Shown here: one piece after another, positions 1 to 4,956 of the stretch | Layout: every line of letters starts with the position of its first letter | Position numbering within the stretch: the first letter of the stretch is position 1 | Origin: Pseudomonadota bacterium | GTDB taxonomy: Bacteria > Pseudomonadota > Gammaproteobacteria > Burkholderiales > JAKAFK01 | Assembly: GCA_021788645.1 (NCBI GenBank) | Contig: JAJYKK010000003.1 | Location: 1-64,000, forward strand | DNA length: 64,000 nucleotides | Reading direction: 5' to 3' | Notes under the pieces: model-generated | The model's input: only the letters and a program-made list of their open reading frames with translations | The model's database searches: none | What the model was told of the DNA's origin: nothing | Program-made: the position numbers and the translations under genes

Positions 1-358
1 CGTCGTCCAGAAGTCGCTTGAGGCCCTTCTTGGGGTAGTTCATGCCCGAACCCAGGTCGGCGATGACCTCGAACGTCCAGCCCTGCCGGGCGCAGTAGCG
101 TTCGAGCACCTGCTTCTGCCGTTCCAGGTCATCCTTTTGGTCATGGCTGGAGACGCGAGCATAGGCGACGGTGCGAAGCGCGGCCTCCGGCGCGCGAAAT
201 TGCTCAGGCCGCAACCGTGCCAAGTCGTAGCGCCGACGCCCGCCGGGCGTGCGCTCGTCGGGAATACGTTTGCCTTCGCGCTCCCAGCGCCGCAGCGTTT
301 GTGCGGCGACGCCAAGGAACTCGGCGGCTTCGTGAATGCTGACCACCTTGCGAGACAT
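1..358 (-). CDS. IS607-family serine recombinase/resolvase (MerR-type HTH plus resolvase domain), truncated by window edge
   Basis: Reverse-strand translation from ATG at 358: MSRKVVSIHEAAEFLGVAAQTLRRWEREGKRIPDERTPGGRRRYDLARLRPEQF...RTVAYARVSSHDQKDDLERQKQVLERYCARQGWTFEVIADLGSGMNYPKKGLKRLLDD; typical IS607 TnpA N-terminus. Absent from the ORF track because it runs off the window. Confidence 0.9.
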   Translation of the reverse strand, partial: MSRKVVSIHEAAEFLGVAAQTLRRWEREGKRIPDERTPGGRRRYDLARLRPEQFRAPEAALRTVAYARVSSHDQKDDLERQKQVLERYCARQGWTFEVIADLGSGMNYPKKGLKRLLDD

Positions 359-384
359 GCTGAAAATATACAACAATGCGCAAA

Positions 385-639: not shown

Positions 640-1045
640 GAGGTTTCGCCTTGGCCGTGTTTAGGCAAGGGTAACGCAGTTTCGGCGCGGAAGCTGGCCG
701 GAAACGGACCTCGGCCTGAGCGGCTCGCCGAGAACCCCATCGCGGCGCGAGGGACCCACGGCAATGACCTGCGACAGACGTCGCGGGCGTTAGGGTGAGG
801 CGCCGGCATGGTTGCCTCTCGCCACCTGGCCAACGGCAGGCGCAGTCACCACCGCCCTTGGCGAGCGGGCTTGCGCGCCAAGCCGTGCGGCGATTTGCAG
901 TACAGCCTCGCGGTGGCTGTGAAGAGCTTCAGAGGGCTTGATGGATTGGCTTAGTCAATCACGCAATTTGATTTCACTATAAGGCAACGCAGGGCTGAAA
1001 TCAACGACGCAATGTGGTGCTATTTGCGGGTGATGTGGGGTTAAA

Positions 1046-1116: not shown

Positions 1117-1146
1117 GGGTATCCGGATTTGGCTGTGTTTGAAGGC

Positions 1147-2568
1147 TCACAGCCGTCCGGATTCCAGTAGCTCGATCAATGTGTTTATGTCGGCCCCGTA
1201 GTTCTTCGGTGGCCCTGGCGGTTCGTGTGGGTGCTCGACCTTCGGCGTGCTCTTCCTTGGAGTCAGAACCGCCTTTCCGAAGTGCCCAGGCGGCAGACCA
1301 TAGCCTATCGCATCGTCCGGTACGCCGAAGCCCATGACTTCTTCCGCCACGGCCAATTCAGGTTCGCGCCGCCGCTCGAATTTCGGACGACTAAGCTTGT
1401 GCTTGTGCGTGCCCTCGGTAAACAGAATCTTGGCTCGCAGTGCCTCGAAGCTGTAGCCGCGCCCCGGCCGGTTCATCACGCGGATCAAGCTGTTCAGGCT
1501 TTCGGTGTAGGCGTTGGTGACGGGATGCTCGAAGTAGTTGAGGATGAACGGCTGCCAGTTCGTGAAGGCCCGGATCAGGTCGTGGAAGGCATCCCGCATC
1601 TCGGGCACCACGGCCTTGTTCCACACCTCGTAGGCCGCTATAGCGGCTTCGGGGCTACCTGACCCTTCATAGATGGCGTAGAAGCCTTCCTTGAGCCTGT
1701 ACGCAGCTCCCAGCTCGGGATAGTTCTTCGTCCAGCCGTCCAGCAGCAGTGCTTCCTTGTCGTTCAGGTCGCTCTCGCGTTTGAGCAGCACGAATCTGTC
1801 GTGCATCAGGCCCCGGCGCTGCTTGGGAGTCAGGTGCTCCCGGAGGCTCTTCCTGACCTTCTCCACGGCGTCATTCGCCATACGCACGACGTGGAACTTG
1901 TCGATGACGATCCGGGCGTCTGGCAGCACCGCCGCGACGGCATCGCGGTACGGCGTCCACATGTCCATCGCCACGTACTGCACCTCCGACTTCCCTTGCA
2001 AGTTGTAGAGGTAGTTCACCACCGTCTTCTTGTCCCGGTTCGGTAGCATGTCGATGATGGTGTTGTTGCGGATGTTGCTGATGACGCAGCGAGGCTTGAT
2101 GAGGTGGATTTCGTCAATACCCATCCACTTCGGTGTCTCAAAGCGGAATTCGCCTTCCAGCTCGTTGATGTAGTCGCGAAAGATGTTGCGGATGGTCTTC
2201 TCGTCCAGGCCGGTGTCGTCAGCGATGCTGGCAAACGTCCGCTTCAAGCTCTGCTGGCCGATCCACTTCACCAGCCGCTCGGTCATCTCGCGCTTGGCGT
2301 TGACGGCGGGCAGCGCCTCCATGAAGGTCTTGCCGCAGGACTGGCACCGCCAGCGGCGCGTGTCCACGTGCATCGCAAGGCGCTTGCCGTGGGTCGGCAG
2401 GTCGCGGATAACCTGCTCATTACGACCGTGGCCGATCAGGCGATCAGAGCCGCAGGCCGTGCAGCCGCCGGGAGGATTCGAGACTTCGGCGTAGACGTGA
2501 TAGTCGTGATCGGCTTCCTCGACCCGCTGCACCTTGAAGTCGGGGAGGTTCAGGATGTTCGCGGGCAT
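1147..2568 (-). CDS. ISL3-family transposase
   Basis: 473 aa; N-terminal zinc-finger pattern CTACGSDRLIGHGR...RRWRCQSCGKTF, then WMGIDEIHL, MDMWTPYRDAV and IDKFHVVRMAN typical of ISL3 DDE transposases. Confidence 0.92.
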   Translation of the reverse strand: MPANILNLPDFKVQRVEEADHDYHVYAEVSNPPGGCTACGSDRLIGHGRNEQVIRDLPTHGKRLAMHVDTRRWRCQSCGKTFMEALPAVNAKREMTERLVKWIGQQSLKRTFASIADDTGLDEKTIRNIFRDYINELEGEFRFETPKWMGIDEIHLIKPRCVISNIRNNTIIDMLPNRDKKTVVNYLYNLQGKSEVQYVAMDMWTPYRDAVAAVLPDARIVIDKFHVVRMANDAVEKVRKSLREHLTPKQRRGLMHDRFVLLKRESDLNDKEALLLDGWTKNYPELGAAYRLKEGFYAIYEGSGSPEAAIAAYEVWNKAVVPEMRDAFHDLIRAFTNWQPFILNYFEHPVTNAYTESLNSLIRVMNRPGRGYSFEALRAKILFTEGTHKHKLSRPKFERRREPELAVAEEVMGFGVPDDAIGYGLPPGHFGKAVLTPRKSTPKVEHPHEPPGPPKNYGADINTLIELLESGRL

Positions 2569-2571
2569 GGG

Positions 2572-2931
2572 TCAATGCGCCGCCAGCAACGGTTGTTTCG
2601 TGTGAAGTGGTGAGTGTTTGGCGAGCGCCACCCAGCTATCTTTGGCGGCTGCAAGTTCAGTTTCCCAACGTGCAAGGTCTTCGACGGATACGGCTGCCGA
2701 CCCAGCGCACAGCTTCCGGCTGACGCTATCGCGCTTCACCTGGGCGCTTTCCAGTCGGAATAGGGCCTCCTTCATCTCCGCGCGCTCAAGCAGACGGCCA
2801 TAGGCGGCGGCTTCAAACTGTGACGCCTTCGAGGCAGGCGACTGGATCGGCTGAGGTTGCCGCCGGGTGCGTGGTTTCCTGACAGTGATAGCAGTCGATT
2901 GGTCGTCGGGGCTTTCTGCGATGACGGACAT
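2572..2931 (-). CDS. Hypothetical passenger protein in ISL3 element
   Basis: ORF from internal Met (MSVIAESPDDQSTAITVRKPRTRRQ...) ending 3 nt before the transposase start; co-directional in a tight cluster. Confidence 0.55.
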   Translation of the reverse strand: MSVIAESPDDQSTAITVRKPRTRRQPQPIQSPASKASQFEAAAYGRLLERAEMKEALFRLESAQVKRDSVSRKLCAGSAAVSVEDLARWETELAAAKDSWVALAKHSPLHTKQPLLAAH

Positions 2932-2935
2932 GGTT

Positions 2936-3208
2936 TCAATGGCTCCTGTCACGGCGCCACGAGACACTGAAAGTCAGGTCGGTCAGCGCATACACGACGG
3001 GTTCAATGCTGCCCCTGTGCTGGCTGTTCGTCTGCGTGAGTTCGTCCGCGCATTCATAACAAGCGATGCTGCCCGCTTTGCCCATGAGCTCGTGCCACTC
3101 GGCCACCTCATCCAAGGCAACGGCCAGAAAGCCGACTTGCCACTCGGACAGGCCGGTGTCACTGGGCAAGAACGAAGCCGCCTGTTCGGCGGTGTATCCG
3201 GTTTTCAT
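2936..3208 (-). CDS. Hypothetical passenger protein, start overlaps hepT stop
   Basis: 90 aa MKTGYTAEQAASFLPSDTGLSEWQVGFLAVALDEVAEWHELMGKAG...; 4-bp overlap with the upstream ORF. Confidence 0.6.
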   Translation of the reverse strand: MKTGYTAEQAASFLPSDTGLSEWQVGFLAVALDEVAEWHELMGKAGSIACYECADELTQTNSQHRGSIEPVVYALTDLTFSVSWRRDRSH

Positions 3209-3594
3209 GGTTCCATTCCTTCGTGATCGGAGTTACGGGAGAGCGCCGCGCTCACCGCGGTGATTTGCGCGTGTAGGTCTGGCAGGTTGCTCTGAATCGT
3301 CTTCCAGACGATTTCCAAGTCCACCTTGAAGTAGCCGTGTGCAAGTGCGTTGCGCATGTCATTGGCGAGCGCCAAGGGAAGCTCCGGGTGCGCTGCGGCG
3401 AACTCCGGGTGGACACGCTCGATATTGCGACTGGCTTCGCCGATCACTTCCAGGTTGCGAATCACGGCGTCCTGCACGATCTTGCTGGACAAGAAGCCAA
3501 CTTCGTCAACATCGGCCACGTAGGCGTGGATGCGCTCGATGGCTTCAAGGATGTGCCCCAGGTAGTCGGGCAGTCGCTGAGGATCGCGGCTCAT
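3205..3594 (-). CDS. HepT-like toxin (DUF86 family)
   Basis: 129 aa; RNALAHGYF matches the Rx4-6H type motif; paired with an adjacent minimal nucleotidyltransferase. Confidence 0.85.
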   Translation of the reverse strand: MSRDPQRLPDYLGHILEAIERIHAYVADVDEVGFLSSKIVQDAVIRNLEVIGEASRNIERVHPEFAAAHPELPLALANDMRNALAHGYFKVDLEIVWKTIQSNLPDLHAQITAVSAALSRNSDHEGMEP

Positions 3595-3881
3595 ACGGGA
3601 CTGGCCTCCGCGAGCACGGCGGCACGGAACTTGTCTGGTAATCCGTTGGGCGTCAGCACGTCCACCGGCACGCCGAGCAACTTGCGCAGTTCCACACGGA
3701 TCGCGCTGATGTCGAACAGGGTCGTTTCCGGCGTCGGGTCGATGAGGATGTCGAGATCGCTGCTGTCGGTGTCCTGGCCGTGCAGTACGGAGCCGAAGAC
3801 CCGAGCATTGCGGGCGCGGTGAGACTCGACCACGTGCCGGATCGCGGCACGGTTCGAAGCCAAGGCTTCAGAGGGCTTCAC
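3591..3881 (-). CDS. MntA-like antitoxin, minimal nucleotidyltransferase
   Basis: GSVLHGQDTDSSDLDILID (GSx10DxD motif); likely GTG start at 3881 (ORF track extends to 3941). Confidence 0.82.
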   Translation of the reverse strand: MKPSEALASNRAAIRHVVESHRARNARVFGSVLHGQDTDSSDLDILIDPTPETTLFDISAIRVELRKLLGVPVDVLTPNGLPDKFRAAVLAEASPV

Positions 3882-3898
3882 GTCTTCTTCTCCCACAA

Positions 3899-3951
3899 CA
3901 AAATCCGGTTTAATGATAGAGCAACGGCGCACGGAAGGCAAAATCCGGTTT
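3899..3951. repeat. Two 13-bp direct repeats CAAAATCCGGTTT upstream of the antitoxin
   Basis: CAAAATCCGGTTT at 3899-3911 and 3939-3951, 40 bp start to start. Confidence 0.8.
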
Positions 3952-4010
3952 TACGCCAAGATGACAAAGGCTGTATCAGAGACCGGAAACACACTCAAAT
4001 CCGGATACCC

Positions 4011-4018
4011 GTCGAAAC
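4011..4018. repeat. Right target-site duplication GTCGAAAC
   Basis: Exact match to 1109-1116. Confidence 0.9.
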
Positions 4019-4383
4019 AGGCGCCGAAAGTGCCGTGCCGTGACCCCCAGATGGGCGGCCAGCCCATCGATCGCGGCATTATTCAACACCCCTTCGGAAA
4101 TCCGACAGGGGGCCCGGGATACCCTCGTCGCCGTACCCCGCCAGCCGGCAATGCCTGGACTTAGGTCCGGCCGGCAGCGCAGGCAGGGTCTGAAGCCGTG
4201 CTGCCGGGCTGCAGCAGCACTGGGCAGAAAGGTGCAAGTCTTGAACTGCGGCGGCCCCGCGGGACAGATCAGGCGACAGTAAATACCCGTGGAGAGAACG
4301 CCGACATAAAAGACCCCATCGAACCGGGCATCACGCGCTTGAAACGCCCGATAGCAGGCTGCGGGGTCGAGATTCTTATCCAT
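4011..4383 (-). pseudogene. N-terminal fragment of Ada-type regulator / AlkA-Ada fusion, interrupted by ISL3 element
   Basis: MDKNLDPAACYRAFQARDARFDGVFYVGVLSTGIYCRLICPAGPPQFKTCTFLPSAAAARQHGFRPCLRCRPDLSPG...: Ada metal-binding domain with its Cys residues, then AraC HTH HLGVTARHFRRLFRR, ending exactly at the TSD. Confidence 0.85.
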
Positions 4384-4956
4384 GGCACGGACTATAGGAG
4401 ACATCGATATTCACCGCTGGCCATTTTCGAACATGATCGGCGCCGGCTCAAGGTCCGCTATTAACGCGTTGCTTGGGGCGGCGTCCCGCGAAGAAAATAT
4501 ACCCTCGGCCACGAACGGGACGCGGATCGGCCAGTTCACCCGCACCAACGCGATGCCGGGTTTCAGCAACAGATAGATCCAGTCGCTCCGCCGCACGACC
4601 GTGCTTCGCCGAAGAGCCGAGGGCTTGCGCTTGCAGCAGCAGAAACCTGAGCCAGCGAAAGGATGCGGGCCGCGGCCAGATCGCGCCTGGCCCCTGGGGG
4701 CACGGGCTTCCATGCCTCGCCCAAGCGCTTGCCACGGTGTAGCGCGCCTCGCCGGTCAGCGATGCAGCCGAGCACGCTGGCGCTGACCATGGCCTGAACA
4801 AGATCGCGAAAACGGAGCGGAGCCTCTCGGCGCGCAGGTCGGTCAGGCGGCTGACCCGCCCGCACCTGCGGGCGTCGGGATGGACGCCGAGCATTCGCTT
4901 CGGCCGCGGGTCAAGCGCCATTCGCTCCTGCCGGGGGATCCGGCGCTTCGGGTGGG

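Follow-up and report, generated by a model that had tools for sequence, protein, structure and literature searches.

The 64,000-nucleotide stretch analysed here (positions 1 to 64,000 of contig JAJYKK010000003.1, assembly GCA_021788645.1, from a Pseudomonadota bacterium of the Burkholderiales), hereafter the window, carries a 2,894 bp transposon of the ISL3 family at 1117–4010, with a predicted MntA-HepT toxin-antitoxin (TA) pair among its genes. The terminal inverted repeats (IRs; GGGTATCCGGATTTG..., 26 nt, 92% complementary) lie at 1117–1140 (plus strand, transposase-side end) and 3987–4010 (minus strand, MntA-side end, called the left end of the element below). They are flanked by an exact 8 bp target-site duplication (TSD; GTCGAAAC, no strand assigned), in window order at 1109–1116 on the left and 4011–4018 on the right. 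All five genes lie on the minus strand in the order mntA, hepT, a 90-aa gene, a 119-aa gene and the transposase gene; mntA and hepT overlap by 4 nt (ATGA), as do hepT and the 90-aa gene, and the 119-aa gene and the transposase gene have start codons a few bases past the preceding stop. A preliminary description of this DNA had named an ISL3-like transposon with IRs, a TSD and this gene order, and the ends, the duplication and the order were all confirmed. The element sits inside an ada-like gene (3976–4404, minus strand) with an Ada metal-binding domain. Joining the flanks minus one duplication restored the frame across the site (…RHFRRLFRR before it, HLGVTPISVAQTHRILFAIGV and a stop after it), so the insertion broke the ada-like frame; the interrupted gene is without its downstream part and ends early anyway.

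The transposase (473 aa, 1147–2568, minus strand) matched PF01610 (E=8.8e-63), PF13542 and PF14690, as well as the NCBIfam model transpos_ISL3 (NF033550; 302.8 bits, cut-off 180). Its DDE_Tnp_ISL3, helix-turn-helix and zinc-ribbon domains, together with related terminal repeats starting with GG and the 8 bp duplication, agree with the definition of the ISL3 family. Residues D152, D223 and E356, kept in 99% or more of 79 relatives, are consistent with a DDE triad, and the ratio of non-synonymous to synonymous substitution rates (dN/dS) against near relatives was 0.08–0.15. No resolvase was found among the open reading frames (ORFs) of the element, and the TnpA, resolvase and res site of TA-carrying Tn3-family transposons do not apply to it, the transposase being of the ISL3 type. 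On these features the element is a predicted autonomous ISL3-family transposon.

The TA pair consists of MntA, a predicted minimal nucleotidyltransferase antitoxin (3591–3881, minus strand; PF01909/PF18765, E about 1e-7 against the NTP_transf_2/Polbeta families), and HepT, a predicted HEPN RNase toxin (3205–3594, minus strand; PF01934, E=3.2e-26). The likeliest start of MntA is GTG 3881, giving 96 aa; the TTG of the longer ORF was set aside after alignment with relatives starting at ATG. The HepT motif RNALAHGY matches RX4HXY, with R81, N82, H86 and Y88 invariant across 12 homologues, and the MntA motif GSVLHGQDTDSSDLD matches GSX10DXD, with G30, S31, D42, D44 and D74 invariant across 11. The MntA-like and HepT-like genes read earlier from these motifs are thus borne out, with motifs intact and key residues invariant in the aligned homologues. 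In the type VII system of Shewanella, MNT precedes HEPN and the signature motifs are GSX10DXD and RX4HXY (PMC7641770). The window pair resembles it in having a PF01934 toxin beside a PF01909 antitoxin, antitoxin first, with an overlap at 3591–3594 and both motifs; it differs in lying within a transposon operon and in its NCBIfam scores, which fall short of the equivalog cut-offs. A solved relative was found for MntA (1wot), and the solved-structure search with HepT gave no match at 1e-3. The dN/dS values against near relatives (0.02–0.06 for MntA, 0.09–0.18 for HepT) indicate purifying selection on the pair, similar in strength to that on the transposase.

For comparison, GTDB contigs were scanned with the transposase, giving 80 loci (designated by L numbers), and plasmid records added more; both ends could be placed in 40 loci, window included. 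The relatives come mostly from metagenome assemblies, the sample was chosen by transposase likeness and ORFs were called in this analysis. The duplication was perfect over 8 bp in 20 of the 40 elements and had at most one mismatch in 26, the perfect ones being 82% A+T; perfect duplications in 20 of 40 elements, at independently located ends, put these ends beyond chance. Loci L078 and L097, from two genomes, hold one and the same 3,275 bp element at different sites, an indirect sign of transposition.

MntA/HepT or a remnant lies inside seven elements whose duplications have no more than one mismatch, namely the window element and L005 (R. denitrificans), L006 (A. caviae), L010 (the second copy present in the genome of the window), L064, L075 and L050, in the last of which HepT is decayed. 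The TA pair, proposed earlier as a genuine passenger on the strength of its place within the TSD-bounded unit, is therefore inside such a unit here and in six other elements, and it is not the case that the TA genes fall outside the IRs in all relatives. MntA-HepT was also found beside this transposase in nine further loci. The pair occupies the interval from the left end to the transposase in the window, L005, L006, L010 and others; in L082, L083, L087 and L088 hepT ends at the transposase start, which makes a compact three-gene element. The closest comparison is the element on Aeromonas caviae plasmid pKAM345_1 (L006), with a transposase 95%, HepT 92% and MntA 97% identical, ends matching those of the window element and an 8 bp duplication, but with five unrelated middle genes, including one for a pRiA4b ORF-3 protein. 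The same five-gene arrangement, suggested as something to look for in other genomes, did not recur: no homologue of the 90-aa gene was found in the plasmids, genomes and loci searched, and the middle genes of the Aeromonas relative are wholly different. A conserved five-gene unit was accordingly ruled out, the 119-aa gene also occurring elsewhere without MntA-HepT, while the core of the arrangement, MntA-HepT carried with the transposase, is widespread among the related elements. No copies of the element were found in E. coli genomes at megablast sensitivity.

The left end holds the only sigma-70-like promoter within the scanned region (TTGCCT-17-TATCAT, 3913–3941, minus strand), just upstream of mntA and between two copies of the terminal repeat. 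The sub-terminal IR-like repeats are repeat 2 (ACCGGATTTTGCCTTC, 3934–3949, minus strand) and repeat 3 (ACCGGATTTTGTTGTG, 3894–3909, minus strand), the latter in the same place in most of the 40 elements. The first 140 bp have one layout across these elements regardless of cargo: nearly all 40 have the terminal-repeat core again at about +61 and +107, and the promoter register at +75 with its 17 bp spacing is conserved across 39 (mean of 6.4 of 12 matches at +75, compared with 3.25 over all offsets). Between subgroups the sequence of the sub-terminal repeats shifts in step with that of the terminal repeat, which would fit binding of all three by one transposase. From the geometry of repeats and promoter we infer that the transposase represses the left-end promoter. 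In L071 (1972) and L074 (6972) an extra perfect copy of the terminal repeat precedes the transposase start by about 20 bp and may be left over from a simple insertion sequence out of which the cargo element grew.

The recurring unit comprises the left end, a TA module at the promoter side, variable small genes and the transposase. Cargo classes were taken from Pfam matches, and near relatives of a tested protein from sequence likeness. A TA or restriction-modification (RM) module was present in about 22 of the 26 elements with a duplication of at most one mismatch, the types including HEPN/MNT families, Fic, DUF6036, VapD and DUF2442; outside this set, the lineage also has AbiEii, zeta and a single Wadjet-like cluster. 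Three HEPN/MNT types (PF01934, PF05168 and PF20797) occupy the slot, as do Fic, an AbiEii-family nucleotidyltransferase with a 75-aa partner, DUF6036, zeta toxin, DUF5397 with a VapD/Cas2-like protein, DUF433 with DUF5615, DUF4160/DUF2442, a BsuBI/PstI-type RM pair and a cytosine methylase. In NCBI's independent annotation of closed plasmids, too, the genes upstream of the transposase are AbiEii (P. putida, X. citri), DUF6036 (X. citri pv. phaseoli), Fic (Thauera) and RM genes of the type ISP or N-6 methylase kind (Burkholderia, Pandoraea, Sulfuricystis). The 81 cargo ORFs matched mostly TA and RM families (Fic 10, NTP_transf 6, HepT 4, N6_Mtase 4, HEPN 3, VapD/Cas2-like 3). The 148 flank ORFs, up to 2.5 kb outside the ends, gave a wide, mostly ordinary mix of families (PIN 3 and Phd 2 among the matches listed, which cover 25 of 150 families), which rules out a chance link with TA-rich surroundings, although single TA matches could be missed in such a list. 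PF20126 and PF25212 each match one cargo ORF of the set; from a reading of the sequence these were assigned to the MntA-HepT element of L064 (2360–8384), which probably carries a TumE/TumA pair as well.

Exchange of the slot's contents was followed on a transposase tree of 79 rows, built by a quick method, so that the overall mixing is more secure than any single branch. On it, the distribution of 14 cargo classes takes 30 changes to explain (mean after shuffling 46; minimum 13), and the starred branches alone force at least six changes for MntA-HepT. The well-supported 13-row group that includes the window mixes MntA-HepT, MNT-HEPN, DUF5397/VapD and methylase. The left end, by contrast, is constant (terminal repeat, two IR-like repeats, one promoter) while the modules swap often. 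The HepT, Fic and AbiEii-like genes have a similar 3' end (GGRATGGARCCATGA), a Shine-Dalgarno-like stretch overlapping the next start; this could be either a joint left by recombination or a coupling signal that arose by convergence.

These observations are probably best accounted for by a TA-addicted ISL3 transposon whose antitoxin, toxin and transposase are all driven from one promoter that the transposase can repress; the arrangement suggests that the element punishes cells losing it. The transposase would bind the sub-terminal repeats and repress the left-end promoter, and because this one promoter serves both, the TA pair and the transposase would be expressed together, strongly upon entering a new cell and weakly after establishment. 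HepT would act as an RNase and MntA would disarm it by adenylylating the tyrosine of RX4HXY; with the element lost, HepT would be left unopposed and growth would stop, the pair thus acting as the transposon's addiction module ('take me or die'). Since any TA or RM module could fill that role, frequent swapping of the slot would follow. Addiction best explains the slot because the unrelated modules found there have only punishment of loss in common. A stabilising or defence-like role was suggested earlier as a possibility, and the passage of so many unrelated modules through one slot favours a generic addiction role. More tentatively, and with the balance still somewhat against it, the ISL3 lineage might be a general platform for the capture and spread of addiction and defence modules, in which an unvarying left end, its promoter flanked by repeats that the transposase binds, and a fixed toxin-3' coupling sequence (around GGRATGGARCC-ATGA) allow module exchange, and transposase autorepression sets the toxin dose, enforcing establishment after transfer.

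Several observations weigh against the addiction reading. HepT and MntA scored 46.4 and 32.5 bits against an NCBIfam equivalog cut-off of 60, significant but below it, and the pair is for this reason called a divergent HEPN/MNT branch of the HepT/MntA kind, not a certified equivalog of the type VII proteins. Repeat 2 of the window copy has lost 6 nt relative to the Aeromonas copy, and L091 is without sub-terminal repeats. Four elements (L007, L032, L080 and L086) contain no recognised TA or RM module, and in three (L038, L043 and L050) the MntA or HepT frame is broken, so the module is dispensable for transposition over short times. On Azotobacter plasmids (L009 and L020), close HepT-MntA homologues (71%) lie beside a UvrD-helicase gene, and the annotated surroundings contain no ISL3 transposase.

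The main rival, not exclusive of addiction, is host defence, in which the modules would repay the host by stopping phages or competing plasmids. MntA does resemble PADLOC family PDC-S09, and relatives carry RM systems (L069 and L073), AbiEii-family toxins and, in one case, Fic with a Wadjet-like four-gene cluster. This last element (L035/L102, 8.9 kb, G274:C49:19994-28915, duplication CAAGTTTG/CAAGTTTT) encodes an SMC-like protein of 1229 aa (recognised by position and size only), MksE/JetB, a 414-aa gene product and a DUF7281 Toprim protein. PDC-S09 is a candidate family only, however, most modules are minimal two-gene TA pairs and not full defence systems, and defence does not require a fixed place beside the transposase promoter; we regard it as possible but rather doubtful as the principal role. 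A module that regulates transposition, with HepT cutting the operon mRNA or MntA/HepT limiting the transposase so that copy number stays low, would suit the single operon, coupled translation and common promoter. This is improbable, because module type (RNase, Fic, nucleotidyltransferase or RM) does not track the transposase but varies with a constant left end and near-identical transposases, and intact target duplications are also seen in elements lacking such a module of recognised type. Least likely by far is neutral hitchhiking of TA genes captured by chance and now decaying: the three broken frames would agree with it, but dN/dS is low in the window lineage, the pair recurs, and TA and RM families are strongly enriched in the slot relative to the flanks.

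Transposons of the Tn3 family carry TA passengers of many types, repeatedly acquired and placed near the transposition genes and their control region; a 'take me or die' role has been proposed for them, and whether their TA genes use their own or the transposition-gene promoter was left open (Lima-Mendez et al. 2020, PMC7157771). The likeness to the present elements lies in varied TA passengers close to transposition genes, TnSod9 even having HEPN-MNT. That is a single case in the Tn3 family, whereas HEPN-MNT is a common type in the ISL3 elements, whose cargo also includes Fic, AbiEii, DUF6036, VapD and RM. Tn3-family elements have a TnpA of about 1000 aa, a resolvase and a res site; here the transposase has 473 aa, no resolvase was seen, and TA and transposase genes are co-directional in one operon with one promoter in the terminal region. 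The ISL3 layout suggests an answer to the Tn3 promoter question, with one transposon-end promoter serving antitoxin, toxin and transposase. ISPpu12, an ISL3-family element with passenger genes, has a transposase of the same superfamily, but copies of its family match the window transposase weakly (about 66% DNA identity over 12–13% of the element), and its passengers are not known to be TA genes. Full-text searches of open-access papers gave no report of TA passengers in ISL3 elements. At less than 3 kb, the window element brings the 'take me or die' idea within reach of tests on small constructs. Should the pattern hold, genes labelled hypothetical beside ISL3 transposases would yield new TA pairs, a candidate example being the 75-aa partners of AbiEii-like proteins.

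Neither of the two small genes is common to the window element and other MntA-HepT elements, and neither matched a family above cut-off. The 90-aa gene (2936–3208, minus strand), which overlaps hepT at ATGA and has a good Shine-Dalgarno sequence, is an orphan, with no homologues in plasmids, 149 other genomes of the order or the fetched loci. The gene given earlier as about 120 aa is present in the operon as described, its length now being 119 aa from ATG 2931 (2572–2931, minus strand). It has homologues on conjugative plasmids, adjoining transfer genes, and two homologues sit alone in mini-elements measuring about 430 bp, each with ends of the ISL3 type and an 8 bp duplication: L015 1119–1544 (GTTTTTTA) and L007 7702–8135 (CTTTTAAT), the latter nested in a larger ISL3 element. 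The gene therefore moves on ISL3-type ends without MntA-HepT, and our guess is that it is a passenger selected for plasmid life.

Further traces of related sequences were seen. A distant MntA-HepT (42% identity) lies beside resolvase-like genes in L018 (4702–5375), and a HepT match of this kind occurs in more than 1,400 plasmid records, mostly of Klebsiella and Enterobacter. An isolated transposase-side end of another ISL3 element at L011 4623 (C88 of the window's own genome) is apparently a decayed copy. In the window itself, a remnant of an older related ISL3 element lies just outside the left duplication (793–1013, minus strand), consisting of a partial left end with promoter and the first 28 or so codons of an L010-like MntA. 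Finally, an ORF at 1–360 (minus strand) resembles, by eye only, an IS607-type serine recombinase with an N-terminal MerR-like helix, and a similar start, also judged by eye, adjoins the second ISL3 copy (L010 6777–7040).
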